Positions 34,001 to 42,140 of a stretch of 42,282 nt of DNA are shown piece after piece; positions within the stretch are counted from its first letter, which is position 1, and each line of letters begins with the position of its first letter. The translations under genes were made by a program, and so were the position numbers. The DNA comes from Bacteroidales bacterium (GTDB lineage: Bacteria > Bacteroidota > Bacteroidia > Bacteroidales > Bacteroidaceae). The stretch spans positions 1-42,282 of the forward strand of contig SUXT01000014.1 of assembly GCA_015060835.1 (NCBI GenBank), in the 5' to 3' direction. The notes beneath the pieces are model-generated. The model ran no database searches. It was given only the letters and a program-made list of their open reading frames with translations, and was not told the origin of the DNA.

Positions 34001-34105
34001 ACAGCAAATAGTCATTGGGGAGTATAAAAACTCCTGCTCGAAGTGTAGAAAAGTGCCAATTGGAAGAAAAAATCAGATATTTTTAAAATTTTCTTCAAAA
34101 ATCCA

Positions 34106-34135
34106 TTGCGGTTTGAAAAATTAGTTCTACCTTTG
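34106..34135 (+). promoter_or_regulatory. Promoter of tRNA-Pro
   Basis: TTG at 34106-34108 and TACCTTTG at 34128-34135 are 19 bases apart, an exact fit to the Bacteroidetes promoter spacing. The tRNA starts 16 bases after the -7 box. Confidence 0.75.
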
Positions 34136-34151
34136 CAGAGCAAAACCCAAG

Positions 34152-34226
34152 CGGGGTGTAGCTCAGCCCGGTTAGAGTACGCGTCTGGGGGGCGTGTGGT
34201 CGCTGGTTCGAATCCAGTCACCCCGA
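34152..34226 (+). tRNA. tRNA-Pro (anticodon GGG)
   Basis: A 75-base cloverleaf: acceptor CGGGGTG/CACCCCG with discriminator A at 34226; D arm from GCTC (34161-34164); an anticodon stem with loop CTGGGGG giving anticodon GGG at 34187-34189; and the T arm with TTCGAAT. CCA is not encoded. GGG reads CCC and CCU codons. A short leader and a following terminator make it a single transcript. Confidence 0.93.
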
Positions 34227-34231
34227 CTGGA

Positions 34232-34276
34232 AAAGCCTCGAAAATCGAAAGATTTTCGAGGCTTTCGCTTTTTTTG
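34232..34276 (+). terminator. Terminator after tRNA-Pro
   Basis: A 15-bp perfect stem (34232-34246 with 34251-34265) with loop GAAA is followed by CGCTTTTTTT. Confidence 0.9.
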
Positions 34277-34485
34277 TCTGCACTATTCGGCTCGGTGTAA
34301 ATAATTGATGCGCTACCGTAAAAACCTGAAGTGAATCCTTGATACTTTCATAAATTTTCCCATTTCTCTTTTTTGTTTATACTGTTCTATTTTATCTCTT
34401 TTTCTTTGTAAATATCAAATTTATTTTTGGTTTTAAAGTATTAGTTTGTATTTTTTCGTCGTTTTGTAAAGTCGTATTTAATAAA

Positions 34486-34575
34486 ATGAAGTATGACAAT
34501 ATCAACTCTCCCTGTTCCGTAAATATGGGCACAATATTGACAATGAACGCGTATATTTCTACAACGCCAATATAA
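34486..34575 (+). CDS. Possible 29-residue peptide ahead of a terminator
   Basis: The frame MKYDNINSPCSVNMGTILTM followed by nine more residues starts in an A-rich context (AATAAAATG) like many starts here and ends 15 bases before a terminator hairpin. It has no signal or membrane segment. It may be a real small protein, a leader peptide or chance; a small RNA ending at the hairpin is equally possible. Confidence 0.2.
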   Translation: MKYDNINSPCSVNMGTILTMNAYISTTPI

Positions 34576-34590
34576 ACCCCTCTAAAATAA

Positions 34591-34624
34591 AAGGCGGTTT
34601 CCTATGCCGTCTTGTGTTTTTTTG
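34591..34624 (+). terminator. Hairpin with T-run before the sigma-factor promoter
   Basis: AAGGCGG (34591-34597) pairs with CCGTCTT (34607-34613, one G-T pair), followed by GTGTTTTTTT. It marks the end of a short transcript that starts somewhere after the tRNA terminator. Confidence 0.65.
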
Positions 34625-34626
34625 AC

Positions 34627-34634
34627 TATTTTTG
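34627..34634 (+). promoter_or_regulatory. -7 box of the sigma-factor operon
   Basis: TATTTTTG matches TAnnTTTG and lies just after the preceding T-run; no -33 match is visible. Transcription from here gives a leader of roughly 160 bases. Confidence 0.45.
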
Positions 34635-34801
34635 CATCCGACACGGGGGATGTAGCAGTAAGGTATCTGATATAAACAGCATTTTATATCTCACATAAAA
34701 GGCTATAGAATAATCCCATTCAATCAACCAAAACAGAGGCGCTTTTAACAAGCCGGGGTTTGATACCGTCAGCAAGTTGAATTCGCAGGAAAACATAAAA
34801 T

Positions 34802-35515
34802 ATGACAGATTCACAACTTATATTCGGGATAGTGCAGAACGATGAGCGTGCCTGGAGGTACATCTGCAGAGAGATGAGGCCGGGATTCGCTTCAATTTTG
34901 GTACAGGCATTTGTTGATAGGATTTCTGACGAAGATATCGAGGATATCTTTCAGGAGTCGCTGATTGTGTTGATGCAAAAGGTGAAAAGTGGCAGTGTGG
35001 TGAGTAGTCGTGAGGGCGCTCTGTTCAGCTATCTTGTGCAGATAGGCAAACTGACGGCATGCAACATGGTTCGTAAAAAAACTGCACAAAATTTGGACGA
35101 TGCGGTTACCTCTTCGCTTACTCTACATTATAGTAGTGAGGAAGATGCTGACATTACCGTAGATGAAAAGCAGCAAATGCAGAACGAATTTCTGGACAAA
35201 ATCCTGGATATGATTCCAACGGAGTGCAGGAATCTTCTGAAACATTTTTATTGGAACCATAAGCCTATGGATGAGATTGCAGGCATTTTGGGTATGCGTA
35301 ATGCCGATTCCGTAAAGGCTAAAAAGAGTAAGTGTATGAATAAGATCAAGGAATTGGCCGCCCGTATTATTGAAAATGACGAGTTTGCCGAAGAGGTTAT
35401 TCGCAATGCCGTAGAGAGAGCAGCGCTCAGAGAGTTGATCGATAACGAGAGAAACAATGCAGGCGACGGCTACTGTATGGCTGCTTTGGATGTTGATGAC
35501 GATACAGAGGAGTGA
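34802..35515 (+). CDS. Sigma-70 family (ECF-like) RNA polymerase sigma factor
   Basis: The 237-residue protein has a region 2 (about 8-90: DEDIEDIFQESLIVLMQ, then YLVQIGKLTACNMVRKK) and a region 4 helix-turn-helix (about 138-185: RNLLKHFYWNHKPMDEIAGI, then NADSVKAKKSKCMNKIKEL). A linker of about 35 acidic residues separates them, and the tail of about 50 residues is unusual in length and ends DVDDDTEE. It directs RNA polymerase to a special promoter set. The next gene, a membrane HExxH protein, starts within its stop codon (TGATG), so its output is tied to that protein; the targets are unknown. Confidence 0.85.
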   Translation: MTDSQLIFGIVQNDERAWRYICREMRPGFASILVQAFVDRISDEDIEDIFQESLIVLMQKVKSGSVVSSREGALFSYLVQIGKLTACNMVRKKTAQNLDDAVTSSLTLHYSSEEDADITVDEKQQMQNEFLDKILDMIPTECRNLLKHFYWNHKPMDEIAGILGMRNADSVKAKKSKCMNKIKELAARIIENDEFAEEVIRNAVERAALRELIDNERNNAGDGYCMAALDVDDDTEE

Positions 35516-36249
35516 TGAAGGAAAGACTTGGCAAAATCGGCTATATAGCATTTACCTCATTATTCGGTCTGTTGACAGTTCTTTTCTTGGGCGTTTTTAT
35601 AACATCTCTTGCCAAGAACGCCATTGATATGTGGGTGAGGATAGGTTGTGATTGGCGGCATACAGGAAATTATGTAGGTCTGTTTGCCGGTTTTGCTGCA
35701 TACGGGTTGTTTGCTATAACTGTTGTTGTCTTCAAAATCAGTCATAATCTGAATTGGCTCATGAAGTTCACTCACGAGTTGACACATACGCTTATGGCTT
35801 TGTTGTTTTTCAAGAAAATCAGCGAATTTGTGGTCAAGGGCAGAGAATGCTATGTGAATTACAAGCCGGGTAAATATGGAATCGGGTATATCCCTATCAC
35901 TTTATCGCCTTATTGCATACCTATATATACATTCATGATATTTCCGTTCAGGTTTGCCGGCGATAGCCACTATATGATAATATTTGATGCGCTGATTGCG
36001 TTTACTTATGCATTTCATCTCCATTCATTCATAAAGCAGACACGTCTCACGCAGTCCGATATTGAGAACTGCGGCATTGCAAGGTCTGTTTCGTTTCTTA
36101 CATTCACACACCTTGCGGTGGCATCTGTCATTCTTGCTACTCCGAAGGGCGGAGTGCTGAAGGCTGTTGGCAGAATATTTTTTGAATACCCTCTGCGTAT
36201 CCTCACAGACCCGCTGGGCTGGGCACGCGAAATAATAATGTATTTTTAG
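35515..36249 (+). CDS. Integral membrane HExxH protein, M50B- or DUF3267-like putative metalloprotease
   Basis: From the ATG at 35515 (one base overlap with the sigma-factor TGA) the protein has 244 residues; a GTG three bases earlier is possible. It has about five hydrophobic segments (about 8-32, 52-72, 125-147, 148-170 and 190-208). FTHELTHTLMALLFF, near residues 85-100, contains the zinc motif HELTH at the edge of a membrane segment, as in site-2-type or DUF3267 zincins. The usual second motif of RseP (LDG) is not found. Coupling to a sigma factor suggests control of an anti-sigma factor or direct sequestration, but no anti-sigma gene is present. This is inference from context. Confidence 0.7.
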   Translation: MKERLGKIGYIAFTSLFGLLTVLFLGVFITSLAKNAIDMWVRIGCDWRHTGNYVGLFAGFAAYGLFAITVVVFKISHNLNWLMKFTHELTHTLMALLFFKKISEFVVKGRECYVNYKPGKYGIGYIPITLSPYCIPIYTFMIFPFRFAGDSHYMIIFDALIAFTYAFHLHSFIKQTRLTQSDIENCGIARSVSFLTFTHLAVASVILATPKGGVLKAVGRIFFEYPLRILTDPLGWAREIIMYF

Positions 36250-36314
36250 AGGTTTATTCCCCAATAAGATATTTTTTTGAATTAAGCGGTTACCTTTTCT
36301 TCGTAACGACATTA

Positions 36315-36343
36315 TAGAGTGAAAACAATTCAATAACACTCTA
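36315..36343 (+). repeat. 7-bp inverted repeat before the small secreted protein
   Basis: TAGAGTG (36315-36321) and CACTCTA (36337-36343) are separated by 15 bases and end 13 bases before the ATG at 36357. It may be an operator or an mRNA hairpin. Confidence 0.4.
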
Positions 36344-36356
36344 AAATTTCAACGTT

Positions 36357-36749
36357 ATGAAAAAAATCTTTTTTGTTGCGATTCTTTCGCTCGTGTCAGT
36401 TTTTTGTGTAGCTGCAACTACAATCGATGCAACACCATCGTCAAACAACACCTCTTCTGTAACAGCAAAAATTGCAGGAATGGATGAGGAATTCGACTTT
36501 GAAACAAAAACTTTGACGGCTATATATCATCTGATGCCGCAGAAGGTAAAGACGCTTTGCATTAGGAGTTACAAGTCTATAGCTCCGCGAATAGATAAGT
36601 CTGTAGGCAAGCGTTTCGTGTATGAGGGCGTGGCAATTACTCCCATCAAAACAGCCAATGGCATAGACTTGAAATTCAGTTACAAAGGTCACTCTCTCGT
36701 AGTGGAGAACTACACAAAAGCAGAGTTTGATAAAATCTTCGGGTTGTAG
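36357..36749 (+). CDS. Small secreted protein of unknown function
   Basis: The 130-residue product has a clear signal peptide (about 1-20, FCVAA) and a mature part of about 110 residues with a Ser/Thr/Asn-rich start (DATPSSNNTSSV), two helices (KTLTAIYHLMPQKVKTLC, then SYKSIAPRID) and a beta-rich end (FVYEGVAITP and LKFSYKGHSLVVEN). I recognise no family. It lies between the sigma factor/HExxH pair and the transpeptidase-like gene on the same strand. The 107-base gap before it holds an inverted repeat, so it may have its own control. Confidence 0.65.
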   Translation: MKKIFFVAILSLVSVFCVAATTIDATPSSNNTSSVTAKIAGMDEEFDFETKTLTAIYHLMPQKVKTLCIRSYKSIAPRIDKSVGKRFVYEGVAITPIKTANGIDLKFSYKGHSLVVENYTKAEFDKIFGL

Positions 36750-36812
36750 TATTAGTGAATGGATATTCAGTGCAGCTGCAGAAAAGATGTTTTATCTTAT
36801 AATTTTTGTGCC

Positions 36813-37388
36813 ATGAAAAAATTTTTAATAGTTCTATGTGGTGTTCTTATTGCGATTAGTGTAATAAAGCTGTTCATTCCGAATGATCCACCCTCTAACA
36901 TATCCGAAATATACAATTACTGTAAGAATAATGGATATAGCACCGAATATTGTTTCCTGACCGATTTTTCAAAGCCTTCCGGAACTAAAAGGTTCTATAT
37001 CTACAGTTTCAAGGAAAAGAAAATCATTCACAAAAGTCTGTGTGCACAAGGTCTTGGTGTTAACTATAATATATTTAAATCTACTTTCAGTAATGAAATT
37101 GGTAGCAATTACTCCAGCTTAGGTAAATACAAAGTAGGAAAATTGAGACCAATGTCTAATCCCAGATATGAAAAAGGATACAATCTGTATGGACTCGATT
37201 CTACTAATTCAAATGCACTTGTCCGAGGAATCCTTATTCATAATGGAAACGTAGAATTCGAAACATTCCCATTGCCTTGTATACCGGTTAGCAAAGGATG
37301 CTTTGCTGTATCAAATTCTATGATGAAGCATATCGAATCTATTAAAAAACAGTCAAATAAACCAATATTGTTATACGCCTACAAATGA
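36813..37388 (+). CDS. L,D-transpeptidase catalytic-domain-like protein (YkuD_2 type), membrane-anchored
   Basis: From the ATG at 36813 (MKKFLIVLCGVLIAISVIKL) the protein has 191 residues with an N-terminal anchor; an ATG at 36759 would place 18 polar residues before it and is less likely. The C-terminal half has ILIHNG with the likely active-site His and SKGCFAVSN with the catalytic Cys, as in murein L,D-transpeptidase catalytic domains. These enzymes form or edit 3-3 peptidoglycan cross-links in the periplasm. It is a small stand-alone version without a binding domain. The gene is AT-rich (three sampled lines 30-38% GC, against about 52% in murA), which suggests transfer. Confidence 0.75.
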   Translation: MKKFLIVLCGVLIAISVIKLFIPNDPPSNISEIYNYCKNNGYSTEYCFLTDFSKPSGTKRFYIYSFKEKKIIHKSLCAQGLGVNYNIFKSTFSNEIGSNYSSLGKYKVGKLRPMSNPRYEKGYNLYGLDSTNSNALVRGILIHNGNVEFETFPLPCIPVSKGCFAVSNSMMKHIESIKKQSNKPILLYAYK

Positions 37389-37443
37389 TAAAATAAAACA
37401 ATTTCGCGATAATAATCCTATATTGGATTTTGCAGCAGGATTT

Positions 37444-37479
37444 ATCCCTGAGTTGTCTTTCAATGGACAACTCGGGGAT
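37444..37479. terminator. Hairpin between converging transpeptidase and catalase genes
   Basis: A 14-bp stem with one wobble pair (37444-37457 with 37466-37479) and an 8-base loop lies between the two converging genes. The T-runs are short. Confidence 0.6.
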
Positions 37480-37532
37480 TTCTGTGTGGTATCGGTTATA
37501 ATAGAGAGTACTTCTAACTGTCCCAACGAAAA

Positions 37533-39041
37533 TTATACATGCGTTGCTGTCTGTTCCAGGCGCTCCTTTTCGCTTAACGAAGCGAGCCGTTTCACCTCTT
37601 CTATATTCAATGAAAGAGCCTCGGCAAGACGTGTGCCATATTCGCGGTCGGCAAGGAAGCAGTGTGCCGCATGGCGATACTTGATGTTGTCGCTTACAGG
37701 CATTATGTCGGCGGCAGTGTTCTCGATGAGCAGTCGGCGTTTATCCTCGGTCATCAGACGGTAGAGGTCGCCCGGCTGGTAGAAACAGTCGTCGCTTCTG
37801 TCTTCGTAGGGATTGTAGCGCATGGATGCGCCCTCGGCAGGCGAATAGGTGGCCATTGTCTCCTTAACCTGCCATTCACCTATGCTGTTGGGTGAATAGC
37901 CTTTGCGTGCACCATTGTTGCCATCCACACGCATCTGTCCGTCGCGATGGAAACTGTGTACCGGGCATTTTGCCCTGTTCACCGGTATCTGGTCGTGATT
38001 GACACCGAGGCGGTAACGCTGCGCATCGCCGTAGGAGAAGAGTCTGCCCTGCAATAGTTTGTCGGGGGAGAGCCCAATTCCCGGCACAATGTGCGAAGGG
38101 TTGAATGCAGCCTGCTCCACCTGCGCAAAATAGTTGTCGGGGTTGCGGTTGAGTTCTAAGATTCCAACCTCAATGAGAGGAAATTCACTATGCCTCCACA
38201 CTTTGGTGATGTCGAATGGATTTTCGCGGTAGGCTGCCGCCTGCTCCTCGGTCATCACCTGTATGCACATTTTCCAGCGGGGAAAGTCGCCTCGCTCTAT
38301 TGCCTCGAAGAGGTCGCGACCGTGGCTCTCCCTGTCTTTTGCTATGATGTCGGCAGCCTCGGCATTGGAGAGATTTCTGATGCCCTGCTGTGTGATGAAG
38401 TGGAACTTCACCCACACACGCACCCCCTTGCTGTTCACCAGACTGTAGGTGTGCGAACCGAAACCATGCATGTGGCGATAGGAGGCGGGAATGCCCCTGT
38501 CCGACATAACTATGGTTACCTGATGCAGCGCCTCGGGCAACATGGTCCAGAAGTCCCAGTTGCTTTGCGGCGAACGCAGGTTGGTCTGCGGGTCGCGTTT
38601 GATGGCATGGTTGAGATCGGGGAACTGCAGAGGGTCGCGCAGGAAAAAGACCGGTGTGTTGTTGCCCACAAGGTCCCAATTACCCTCGTCAGTGTAAAAT
38701 TTTATGGCAAAGCCGCGTATGTCGCGCTCGGCATCTGCCGCTCCGCGCTCGCCTGCCACGGTGGAGAAACGCATGAAGACCTCAGTCTTCTTGCCCAGCG
38801 AAGAGAATAGCGAAGCACAACTATATCGGGTAATGTCGTTCGTTACGGTGAAATGTCCGAAGGCACCGCTTCCTTTGGCATGCATCCGTCGTTCGGGAAT
38901 AACCTCGCGGTCGAAATGTGCAAGTTTCTCTATCAGCCAGTTGTCTTCGAGAAGCAGAGCACCGCGCGCTCCCGCTGTGAGTGAATTGGTGTTGTCGGCA
39001 ACAGGTGCTCCCACCTCGTTGGTAAGAAATTTTTTATCCAT
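37533..39041 (-). CDS. katA: Monofunctional heme catalase
   Basis: From the ATG at 39041 ([20 protein letters not shown]) the enzyme has 502 residues, normal for a small-subunit catalase. Conserved parts include the distal His region ([16 protein letters not shown]), [49 protein letters not shown] and the proximal heme ligand region [16 protein letters not shown]. It converts hydrogen peroxide to water and oxygen and protects against oxygen exposure. A frame extending upstream to 39482 runs through tandem repeats and is not part of the protein. It diverges from the large secreted gene at 39539. I cannot identify its promoter with confidence. Confidence 0.95.
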
Positions 39042-39538
39042 ATATCTATCTTTGAAGAGTTTATTGAGAAAATAACAAGAATGGGGGCTTTTTGTTTGGG
39101 ATGTGTTACCGCAGTGTCTGAACGTAGCAATATGTCTTTTGGAGAAGAAAATTTTACAAAAAAAATCTTTTTCTGCACTTTTATATAATAAAATCCGTAT
39201 ATTTGAGGCATGCTCGAATATACACTGCACTTGCTGTGAAAAATATTCAAGCAAGCTTGATATTTCTCGCTCGTTTGTTCGTATATTTGAGGCATGCTCG
39301 AATATACACTGCACTTGCTGTGAAAAATATTCAAGCAAGCTTGATATTTCTCGCTCGTTTGTTCGTATATTTGAGACGTGCTCGAATATACACTGCACTT
39401 GCTGTGAAAAATATTCAAGCAAGCTTGATATTTCTCGCTCGTTTGTTCGTATATTTGAGGCAAACTCGAATATATGCTCCACAACAAGTGAAGCATTGTG
39501 ATAAAGAGAATAAATAATAACAGATAAAGATTTACACT
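39042..39538. other. Divergent intergenic region: catalase leader and tandem promoter repeats
   Basis: The 497-base gap holds about 150 AT-rich bases next to catalase without a recognisable promoter, then 3.4 copies of an 84-bp repeat (39196-39480) and about 60 bases of leader before the secreted-protein gene. Frames across the repeats on both strands are by-products of the 84-base (3 x 28) period. Confidence 0.7.
39196..39480 (+). repeat. 3.4 tandem copies of an 84-bp unit with promoter-like boxes
   Basis: Units start at 39196, 39280 and 39364, with a partial fourth at 39448. Each has TATATTTG (39198-39205, 39282-39289, 39366-39373, 39450-39457), a match to the TAnnTTTG -7 box, oriented toward the gene at 39539. 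Each also has an imperfect palindrome around TATTTGAG...CTCGAATA and, in full units, CAAGC-AA-GCTTG. A TTG about 22 bases upstream of boxes 2-4 could serve as a long-spaced -33 element. Copies are nearly identical, with a few changes in unit 3. Such arrays gain and lose copies by recombination. Confidence 0.8.
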
Positions 39539-41788
39539 ATGAAACATTTTTTACTCACTGCAATTGTGGCATTTGCCGGTCTTGTTGCATCGGCTCAGTC
39601 CTCTACATGGCCCATCACCCTTACGACGGCAAACGGTCTTCCAGGTGCGCTGGAGGTAATAGACGACTATGAAGGAGATACGGTAATTACCTTTGTCTCG
39701 GATCTGTATAAGTTTGACGAGCCCATAACAAAGCTCCGCGTGACGGTTGTCTCCACCAATACCGTCGACGCACAGAGCTATGGAACTACGGGTACCACAG
39801 GTGGCAACGGTCCCGGCTTCCCCTTCTTCTGTATATCCGAGTTGCGAATACTCAAGGCCAATAACAAGGGAACCAATTTCGAGGCTACATCAAATGCAGC
39901 CTCATTGAACAGTGGTGCCTATATGGAGTATATAAACGATGGTATATACGACACATACTTCTCCACCACAACTTATATGGGCGACTGCCCCCAGGCATAC
40001 CACTATATAGAGTTCGAATTCGAAGAGCCTATGAGTGAATTCCGTCTCAAATGGCACTCCAGAGTCAACAATTACGAGAATATGCCTACACATATAGGTC
40101 TCACCCCCGGCACAGAGTATCTTCCCTATCCCGAGCAGGAGTTTGTTCTTGGCGAAAAGGTGGCATCGGCAGACGAATTGGCTCAGGGCGGTGTATATGT
40201 TCTCGAGGGTCATGCTCCCGAATATCTCCATTCGTTTACAGGAACAAAGCGTACATATCCCGGTGGTGGATTCTGGCATTCGCCCTATGGTAGCCATGTT
40301 ACACCCAATGCCGCGTCTGCCATATATCTGATTCCGGTTGATGTTCAGGAAGATATATACAAGGTGGTGTGGCTCAACAACAAGCGTTATATGAAGAATA
40401 GTGGTGCGGGCGAAACTTACCACTGGACAGACTCCGAAGCCGATGCTGCTTTTGTGAAGTTTGCTCCATGCGATTCGGTGAGCGGTGATTTCATCCTTAC
40501 CATCAGCGATACATTGCTTCTGGGACACGATGCTATGGGCAGAATGGTGCTTGTGGAACACAAGGCAGATAAAATGGGTAAAAGAGGAAGACCTACGGCA
40601 TGGAACTTTACATTGCACAAGGTGGAACTCAATGCTTCGGCTATAGGTTTTGTGCTGCAGGATGTCATCGACGAGGCGGAACGGCGCATAGAGCGTCTGG
40701 GCTTCCACGACGATGAAGACTGCGGTTGCTCTTACACGGAATTTGCCGCAGAAATAGAGCGCGGAAAGAATCTTCTGAAAAAGAGTGATGTCACATCTGC
40801 GGAGATTATAAATGCCAAGAACAAACTTACCGGGTATCTCATGGAATATGCTGCTGGAGAAATATATACATACAGCGACTCTGTGGATGGGATTCTGCAA
40901 GCGAAAGAGGACGGGGAGATAAAGACTTCGGCTGCTCCTGATTGGGTCATCGGCACATATCCCATAAATTTCCTCAATGCTCTCCTTGCAACCAGTGACA
41001 ATGCCCTTGCCGACATCGAGGAAGTGGGCTGTATGGAGGATGTAGACAATATAATAGATGGTGTAAAGGCTGCTACAGATAAGTTCTGGGCGGGCAGAAT
41101 AGATGAGTTTGCAACCTTCCCCATCCGCATTGACGAGAGCGACGGTCTTCCGGGTGTTGTACAAGAGAATACCGGATATGTGTGGGAATCGCCCTATTAT
41201 TTGTTCGAAAAAGAGGTTACTGCATTCCGCTTCACAGTCTTTGAAACCAACACAGGCAACAAGTTCGGCAACTACGACAGCTATGCGTTGGGCGAGTTCC
41301 AGGTCTACGACATCAGCGGTAATCTTATAGAACTGACTCCCGACAATTTTAAGACAAATTCCATTGCTCCTCTTTACGGTGCGGGAATAAAGGGGTTGTG
41401 TGATGGCAGTTTCACAACATATTTCAACAGTGCAGTCCGCGAAGAACAAGACCCTGGCGGTTACACCGGCACCGAGGGGTATCCCTATATCGAGGTTACA
41501 TTGCCGACTCCTGTATCCGCTTTCTGCTACAAACAGTATGGTCGCTATTATGGCTTCAACCCCATTGACACTCCCGTAAAATTTGCGATAGGTGCTGCCG
41601 GGGTGGATGTTACCCCCGATGGCACATCCATAGGCAGTGTGGCGGCAGATGGTGACGAACCGGTTTCTGTAACCTATTACAATGTGGCAGGTGCTTCCTC
41701 GGTGACACCGTTCAGAAATACGGTGAATATAGTGAAGACCGTTTATGCAAACGGCAAGGTAGATACCTATAAGAGAGTAATGAAATAA
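39539..41788 (+). CDS. Large secreted protein with duplicated N/C domains and type IX-like C-terminal tail
   Basis: The 749-residue protein has a signal peptide (about 1-19, ASAQ). Two similar beta-rich regions bracket it: about 22-195 (WPITLTTANGLPGALEV, ISELRILKANNKG, INDGIYDTYFSTT, YIEFEFEEPMSEFRLKW) and about 523-695 (FPIRIDESDGLPGVVQ, LGEFQVYDISGN, LCDGSFTTYFNS, YIEVTLPTPVSAFCYK). They resemble discoidin-type carbohydrate-binding domains in layout. Between lie a further beta region and a helical stretch (about 380-520). The last 35 residues, from VTYYNVAG through VNIVKTVYANGKV to a final KRVMK, look like the C-terminal sorting domain of type IX cargo. No catalytic motif is seen; adhesin or glycan-binding is a guess. 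Confidence 0.7.
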   Translation: MKHFLLTAIVAFAGLVASAQSSTWPITLTTANGLPGALEVIDDYEGDTVITFVSDLYKFDEPITKLRVTVVSTNTVDAQSYGTTGTTGGNGPGFPFFCISELRILKANNKGTNFEATSNAASLNSGAYMEYINDGIYDTYFSTTTYMGDCPQAYHYIEFEFEEPMSEFRLKWHSRVNNYENMPTHIGLTPGTEYLPYPEQEFVLGEKVASADELAQGGVYVLEGHAPEYLHSFTGTKRTYPGGGFWHSPYGSHVTPNAASAIYLIPVDVQEDIYKVVWLNNKRYMKNSGAGETYHWTDSEADAAFVKFAPCDSVSGDFILTISDTLLLGHDAMGRMVLVEHKADKMGKRGRPTAWNFTLHKVELNASAIGFVLQDVIDEAERRIERLGFHDDEDCGCSYTEFAAEIERGKNLLKKSDVTSAEIINAKNKLTGYLMEYAAGEIYTYSDSVDGILQAKEDGEIKTSAAPDWVIGTYPINFLNALLATSDNALADIEEVGCMEDVDNIIDGVKAATDKFWAGRIDEFATFPIRIDESDGLPGVVQENTGYVWESPYYLFEKEVTAFRFTVFETNTGNKFGNYDSYALGEFQVYDISGNLIELTPDNFKTNSIAPLYGAGIKGLCDGSFTTYFNSAVREEQDPGGYTGTEGYPYIEVTLPTPVSAFCYKQYGRYYGFNPIDTPVKFAIGAAGVDVTPDGTSIGSVAADGDEPVSVTYYNVAGASSVTPFRNTVNIVKTVYANGKVDTYKRVMK

Positions 41789-41832: not shown

Positions 41833-41907
41833 ATGTATGGCTATAGGGGTAGGCACTTATAACTATTTTTATATATGATACGTATGTATACTATGTGAAA
41901 AAAATCG

Positions 41908-41915
41908 TACCTTTG
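41908..41915 (+). promoter_or_regulatory. Orphan promoter-like -7 box facing right
   Basis: TACCTTTG matches TAnnTTTG but no gene follows inside the window; no good -33 element is present. It may drive a small RNA or belong to the repeat. Confidence 0.35.
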
Positions 41916-42140
41916 CTTGCGACGACGGAATATTTATATTCCCAAAGTAGCGAATTGCGGCGCCTCAAAATGAATAGAAAATAACAAAAAAGAATATTGA
42001 ATATGCTTAACGAAAAACTCTATAGCACAGCGGTTTAGCATTTTGTTATATAGAAGGAGTGCCGAACGCAAGTGAGGTCTTCCTTTTTTCTAAGGAAAAA
42101 GTTCGGAGGGGGTTCTTAACCTATCGTATTGCAATTATTA

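Follow-up and report, generated by a model that had tools for sequence, protein, structure and literature searches.

The window analysed here is a stretch of 42,282 nucleotides from a Bacteroidales bacterium (GenBank assembly GCA_015060835.1, contig SUXT01000014.1, positions 1 to 42,282, forward strand), and this report concerns four same-strand genes on it, termed SIG, HX, SEC and YkuD_2, together with a promoter-like motif in front of SEC. SIG (34802..35515, + strand) encodes a sigma factor of the extracytoplasmic function (ECF) type with 237 residues; HX (35515..36249, +) encodes an M50B-like membrane protein of 244 residues; SEC (36357..36749, +), the first gene after the motif, encodes a small exported protein of 130 residues with one computed N-terminal hydrophobic segment; and YkuD_2 (36813..37388, +) encodes an L,D-transpeptidase-like enzyme with an N-terminal hydrophobic segment and a match to PF13645 far above the cut-off (92.8 versus 27 bits). 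The open reading frame of the latter opens at 36759, and the MKKFLIV at 36813 is its likely start. The SIG stop and the HX start lie within TGATG at 35513-35517, with one base common to the stop codon and the ATG. A preliminary description of the window had claimed this group, i.e. a sigma factor sharing bases with a multi-pass HExxH membrane protein, followed by a secreted 130-residue protein and a small L,D-transpeptidase-like enzyme, and all four genes proved to be present as claimed.

The pairing of SIG with HX, a linkage that the preliminary description had proposed to look for in other genomes, was found in 15 of 15 distinct loci (the window, L039 (= L002), L003, L004, L040 (= L005), L006-L012 and L041-L043), with SIG directly upstream of HX in each; the contig end truncates SIG in L012. 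Overlapping SIG and HX frames are seen in 13 of the 15 loci, and L008 and L009 have gaps of 1 and 2 nt, respectively, with the starts used. SEC follows downstream in 12 loci and is missing from L039, L009 and L011. Purifying selection acts on SIG, HX and SEC alike, with ratios of nonsynonymous to synonymous substitution rates (dN/dS) against the window of 0.08-0.17 (SIG), 0.04-0.12 (HX) and 0.08-0.12 (SEC) where dS could be estimated, dS being saturated otherwise; L012, with its truncated SIG, was dropped from this comparison. Because SIG and HX adjoin in all loci and are under purifying selection, the pairing is more than chance. The SIG, HX and SEC profiles, and the hidden Markov models (HMMs) for the neighbouring enzymes described below, were built from these same loci.

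One genome from each of 84,980 species was scanned with exact peptide patterns, which find close relatives only. HX relatives were encoded at 12 loci, all in metagenome-assembled genomes (MAGs) labelled Bacteroidaceae, Bacteroidales, Bacteroidia, Muribaculaceae or Alistipes, and all 12 genomes carry a ruminant source label (buffalo, deer, yak, cattle, cow or rumen). Close HX proteins (E < 1e-120) were found in six of 399 sampled genomes of the window's family, all within the window's genus. The genomes are mostly incomplete MAGs, and a genome is called module-free below when it had no HX match in this 399-genome search.

SIG matches TIGR02937 (48.5 bits, cut-off 42.9, span 28-184), and PF04542 and PF08281 match below their cut-offs; sigma2 and sigma4 are its sole promoter-binding domains, as in ECF (group IV) sigma factors. 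The 11 aligned SIG proteins share a conserved C-terminal stretch of about 50 residues (approximately residues 188-237 in the window) with a mostly acidic tail. When 247 genomes of the order were searched with the SIG profile (E 1e-20), three matched besides the window's own, and these matches end at profile position 188-194, short of the extension. Characterisation of C-terminal extensions of ECF sigma factors is said to have just begun (PMC8103513, in the extract available).

HX has six hydrophobic segments, and its HELTH (residues 87-91) lies at the start of the hydrophobic segment 89-107, so that the HExxH lies at or in a transmembrane segment, as in M50B-like proteins. All 26 sequences compared (the window, 11 other aligned members and 14 that are more distant) retain the HExxH, P132 and D182; H168 is found in 24 and D158 in 22 of the 26, the latter a candidate for the third zinc ligand, an Asp expected in a later transmembrane segment, that the HX model is too poor to place. 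Peptidase_M50B (PF13398) matches 10 of the 12 aligned members at E up to 0.1, and of 10 HX relatives scanned with this family, L013, L053 and L018 pass its cut-off (31-32 bits), six fall below, and L006 gives no match at E 0.01. A chance occurrence of HExxH is rejected by the full conservation and by the PF13398 matches in relatives. HX is, from these matches, a distant M50B-like relative whose proteolytic activity is putative. Single-gene M50B-like relatives of HX were also seen elsewhere in Bacteroidales (L014-L020 and L044-L053), with no SIG-profile match nearby.

The motif before SEC, GTTACCTTTTCTTCGTAACGACATTATAG, lies at 36289..36317 (+ strand), with a chance expectation of 0.00 in the window. 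In general form, GTTACCTTTT-N9-GACATTATAG precedes SEC in 12 of 12 loci, ends 37-40 nt before the ATG and is near-invariant (0-1 mismatches in 11 loci, three in L008). In L039, which has no SEC, the motif and leader are retained about 340 nt before a CHAP gene, and in L041 a second copy stands before an M23 gene. The common motif that had been proposed before 34802, 36357 and 36813 in the window was thus borne out for 36357; it was not found before 34802 and 36813, and an extra site lies inside SIG. The leader after the motif contains an inverted repeat (AGAGTG 36316-36321 / CACTCT 36337-36342, + strand), a candidate 5' mRNA hairpin (36316..36342) of which AGAGTG sits at the motif end. Over 12 leaders, 93.1% of the cells are paired, and two pairs are changed on both sides, both in L010; the support is modest, since 11 of 500 shuffles reach the same count.

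The occurrence of the motif tracks that of the module across genomes. At up to three mismatches, the window's genome and five same-genus module genomes gave 11 matches, all at the module (seven before SEC, CHAP or M23, four inside SIG), and 10 module-free genomes of the same genus gave one, overlapping the end of an unrelated gene. Nine further module genomes gave 12 matches, 10 of these at the module and two on other contigs, i.e. 21 of 23 at the module over all 15 module-bearing genomes. With the core pattern and no mismatches, the window's genome contains two sites and no more, each of them in this locus, and 11 of 13 matches in 16 genomes are at the module, with the other two in G517. At four mismatches, scattered matches appear (L008, minus strand; three places in L011; the window's minus strand at 41194). 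The two off-module sites (L129 and L130) head clusters related to genes found at the module, and these unlinked operons may be binning errors. In L130, the motif heads SEC, C92, companion, CHAP and YkuD_2 genes, followed by a synthetic transglycosylase (PF00912), and neither SIG nor HX occurs in the 9.5 kb read. The block is 90.5% identical to L006, starting one base ahead of the motif and ending with YkuD_2. In L129 (G802 C2, 2168-5222, minus strand), a zero-mismatch motif precedes genes for two related small proteins and a PIF1-like helicase, which are related to genes at L006 9834-12720.

The site inside SIG, GTTACCTCTTCGCTTACTCTACATTATAG (35105..35133, + strand; codons V-T ... L-H), has two mismatches to the SEC-promoter pattern and none to the core. 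GTTAC and ACAT recur across loci in the variable SIG linker at the spacing of the SEC site. Among the motif scores within the SIG gene, the site ranks first in nine of the 15 loci, second in four, sixth in L009 and 493rd in L011, and in the 13 loci where it is best or second-best it falls at a single alignment column. Its score exceeds that of synonymous shuffles (5% or less) in 12 loci, all except L009, L011 and L012. L009 and L011, which have no good internal site, carry three-mismatch sites elsewhere: before SIG and before M23 in L009, and before the gene directly preceding SIG in L011. Third codon bases were compared over 13 rows (L039 and L011 dropped) and are G in 13 of 13 (over A, M, V, L and E), T in 13 of 13, A in 11 of 13 (over L, Q, P, G, R and M) and T in 13 of 13. 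The best seven-codon span of the gene by third bases overlaps the site, and the span starting from its Val codon ranks eighth of 223. At every locus except L039, synonymous sites have diverged strongly from the window or are saturated, so recent ancestry does not account for this conservation. In front of SIG itself, TAnnTTTG occurs within 70 nt in 10 of 14 loci, as against 5.2% of random stretches, and corresponds to the -7 consensus of sigma-ABfr (PMC7366714, in the part of the text available).

Genes for cell-wall enzymes follow the module. Within 6 kb of HX, C92 genes were found in five loci, YkuD_2 in four, two CHAP types in four and two, and M23 in four, with GH25 once, in L041; at least one wall enzyme is near the module in 12 of the 15 loci. 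A YkuD_2 of the window's cluster is also present in L006, L041 and L043. The Pfam names rest on representatives, and one CHAP type (L003, L006) is below its cut-off (19.1 versus 26). The same cargo gave no matches in 186 kb of other Bacteroidales sequence, an enrichment that is descriptive because the cargo HMMs derive from these loci. The cargo proteins start with hydrophobic export segments, as judged by eye and computed for SEC and the window's YkuD_2 only. Between 34567 and 36367, the window is 98% identical to L039; from there until 37444 the two carry different cargo, which points to cargo exchange behind a fixed promoter. In addition, L143 (G577 C34) holds companion, c8-family and M23 genes in 12 kb, with no motif and no SIG or HX match, a layout indicating that the cargo families also travel alone.

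From gene linkage, selection, the motif with its positions and its near-exclusive occurrence at the module, and the type of cargo, all read from the sequence, we consider it reasonably probable that the locus is a self-contained ECF-type module in which HX restrains or processes SIG, SIG reads the motif, and the output is peptidoglycan remodelling. SIG and HX would be produced jointly, and a housekeeping promoter of the sigma-ABfr type just before SIG probably serves for this in most loci; HX would bind or cut the C-terminal extension of SIG and thereby keep the sigma factor inactive at the inner membrane; and a disturbance of the envelope or wall would free SIG. Freed SIG would direct RNA polymerase to promoters of the form GTTACC-N14-ACATTATAG, one of which would head the operon of SEC and the wall enzymes, and the promoter inside SIG could yield extra HX without full-length SIG, damping or resetting the response. 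The exchangeable cargo after the promoter (L,D-transpeptidase, C92 and CHAP amidases, M23 endopeptidase, GH25 muramidase) would then likely remodel peptidoglycan, an output that the preliminary description had suggested and that is favoured by the cell-wall enzymes behind the motif in 12 of the 15 loci. A more specific form, in which the M50-type protease is itself the gene-overlapping controller of an ECF sigma factor through the C-terminal extension, with no separate anti-sigma factor, and in which SIG reads a dual-coded internal promoter to make HX as negative feedback, is put forward only tentatively.

Several observations weigh against the proposed module. The reading of the motif by SIG, the control of SIG by HX, the feedback through the internal site and the stimulus are steps that we infer. 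The motif, GTTACC ... ACATTATAG, has neither the AAC (-35) nor the CGT (-10) box that the available text of PMC8103513 gives as typical of ECF promoters, though no longer as defining. A reversed control pattern gave seven matches in 16 genomes at three mismatches and another three in the nine further module genomes, so that single three-mismatch matches are weak, and the core scan at up to one mismatch is uninformative because the control (56 matches) exceeds the motif (29). The internal site is within three mismatches in just four of 15 genomes, and on a transcript starting there the translational coupling would be lost, leaving HX in need of its own initiation. No TAnnTTTG precedes SIG in the window, L039, L008 and L011. 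The window's HX scores 20.3 bits against PF13398, under the Pfam cut-off of 26, and its AlphaFold model is poor (predicted local distance difference test (pLDDT) score 49.7) and unfit for structure search; domain searches found no known anti-sigma domain in HX, despite its overlap with SIG, and a physical link between the two proteins is putative. A wall hydrolase was not recognised in L004, L008 and L042, and the M23 gene of L011 is about 4.9 kb past HX, with other genes in between.

An alternative that we regard as unlikely, and one of the two that survive best, is that the cargo is a weapon or lysis set, in which SIG turns on exported hydrolases that kill competitors through vesicles or lysis, the companions, which are small membrane proteins, confer immunity, and swapping reflects arms-race turnover. 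The wholly different cargo behind the near-identical modules of the window and L039 would fit this, as would a faint likeness of one CHAP cargo to Tae4 (15.9 bits, cut-off 27) and a companion membrane family present in eight of the 15 loci, seven of which also have a hydrolase. A usual effector of the type VI secretion system (T6SS) is not expected to start with a hydrophobic export segment, as the cargo proteins do, and the pattern of an immunity gene beside each effector was not found for cargo and companions: no companion is present in five of the 12 hydrolase loci (the window, L039, L003, L009 and L011), and in G531, G510, G538 and G482 relatives of the companion are found on their own, next to other genes. 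The reading of the companion as an immunity protein is weakened. None of 10 proteins matched PADLOC at E 0.01, and a defence system was rejected on this ground. Remodelling is preferred over killing because the cargo appears exported, the unlinked motif operon in L130 is followed by a synthetic transglycosylase, and the companions are not tied to hydrolases.

It is likewise doubtful that HX is a downstream enzyme or processing factor, maturing SEC for example, with SIG controlled by its own extension or by transcription. The SIG extension alone could be the sensor, and 21 further loci, 19 of them with an HX-profile match, gave no SIG or SEC profile match in flanks ranging from some 1.5 to 5 kb (in two cases a pair of loci represents one place, and the upstream side of L013 is lost to a contig end). 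Against this stand the adjoining genes in every distinct locus, overlapping in 13, and the persistence of HX in L039, L009 and L011, all of which are without SEC. That the motif is the operator of another regulator, with the internal copy an amino-acid constraint on the sigma linker, is improbable: the absence of the boxes described for most ECF promoters (PMC8103513, extract) and an invariant T103 and nearly invariant H109 in the linker would agree with it, and the third bases conserved even at varying residues (G 13/13, A 11/13), the SEC-site spacing and the tracking of module presence by the motif speak against it.

Control of sigma release by an M50-type membrane metalloprotease is established for SpoIVFB and pro-sigma-K. 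The same holds for RseP and RpoE, according to the extract of PMC8103513. The module resembles both in pairing an M50-type membrane protein with a sigma factor and differs in that the HX gene overlaps the sigma gene, no RseA-like gene was seen beside it, the candidate regulated part is the C-terminal extension, and HX proteolysis is putative. Sigma/partner pairs with exported outputs are already known in gut Bacteroidales, as far as the available parts of PMC13114119 go. Compared by description in that source, EcfO-Reo of Bacteroides and Phocaeicola is likewise a sigma/partner gene pair whose regulon includes exported proteins (NigD), whereas Reo reaches from the cytoplasm to the outer surface and HX is multi-pass and M50B-like, and the motif of the SIG module is followed by wall-enzyme genes. 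CirY-CirZ with the co-transcribed Spy, compared in the same way (PMC13114119), is also an ECF-type sigma/anti-sigma pair behind which a small periplasmic protein is encoded; unlike there, HX has no anti-sigma domain match, and SEC matches no family at cut-off or structure (none of its PDB sequence matches falls below E 0.19, and a model of pLDDT 60.9 gave no significant fold match). SEC was matched in two of 393 genomes of the order, one being the window's own. No ECF/M50-like gene pair with a wall-enzyme operon is described in the searched open-licence literature, in the portions of text available. The M50-like partner, the putative dual-coded site and the swappable cargo would be the new elements. 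With sigma factor, candidate controller, promoter and output within about 2.6 kb, sigma release without a separate anti-sigma factor is directly testable here; the dual-coded internal promoter is a concrete and cheap prediction, and the exchangeable cargo suggests how gut Bacteroidales could acquire wall enzymes under fixed control.

An acquired island, as the preliminary description had suggested from a nearby tRNA gene and AT-rich sequence, is borne out in part. A tRNA-Pro gene (34152-34227) lies 574 nt before SIG, the GC content is 0.355 over 36501-37500, a same-strand tRNA gene lies within 2.5 kb upstream in six of the 14 loci with upstream sequence (three of the 14 have less than 1.4 kb), and cargo differs between near-identical modules. 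On the other side, 34100-40200 showed no flanking repeat (at least 14 nt) of the tRNA 3' end, no integrase was seen by eye among the listed open reading frames, where no profile search was aimed at integrases, HX and SEC matched no viral contig, and HX matched no plasmid or phage. A phage or plasmid origin was rejected for want of such matches, with SIG and cargo not searched there. In the catalase regions of six relatives, nothing but the catalase gene itself aligns to the window, which left no clean empty site to compare. Before the catalase gene, the window has three tandem copies of an 84-nt unit (39196-39482), relatives of which are dispersed: the own genome has 55 matches, and five of five genomes searched have matches too. 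A further dispersed repeat lies at 41914-42077, with 55 matches, many of them partial, to 41900-42095 in the own genome, and one copy of this type is also found upstream of the module in L039.

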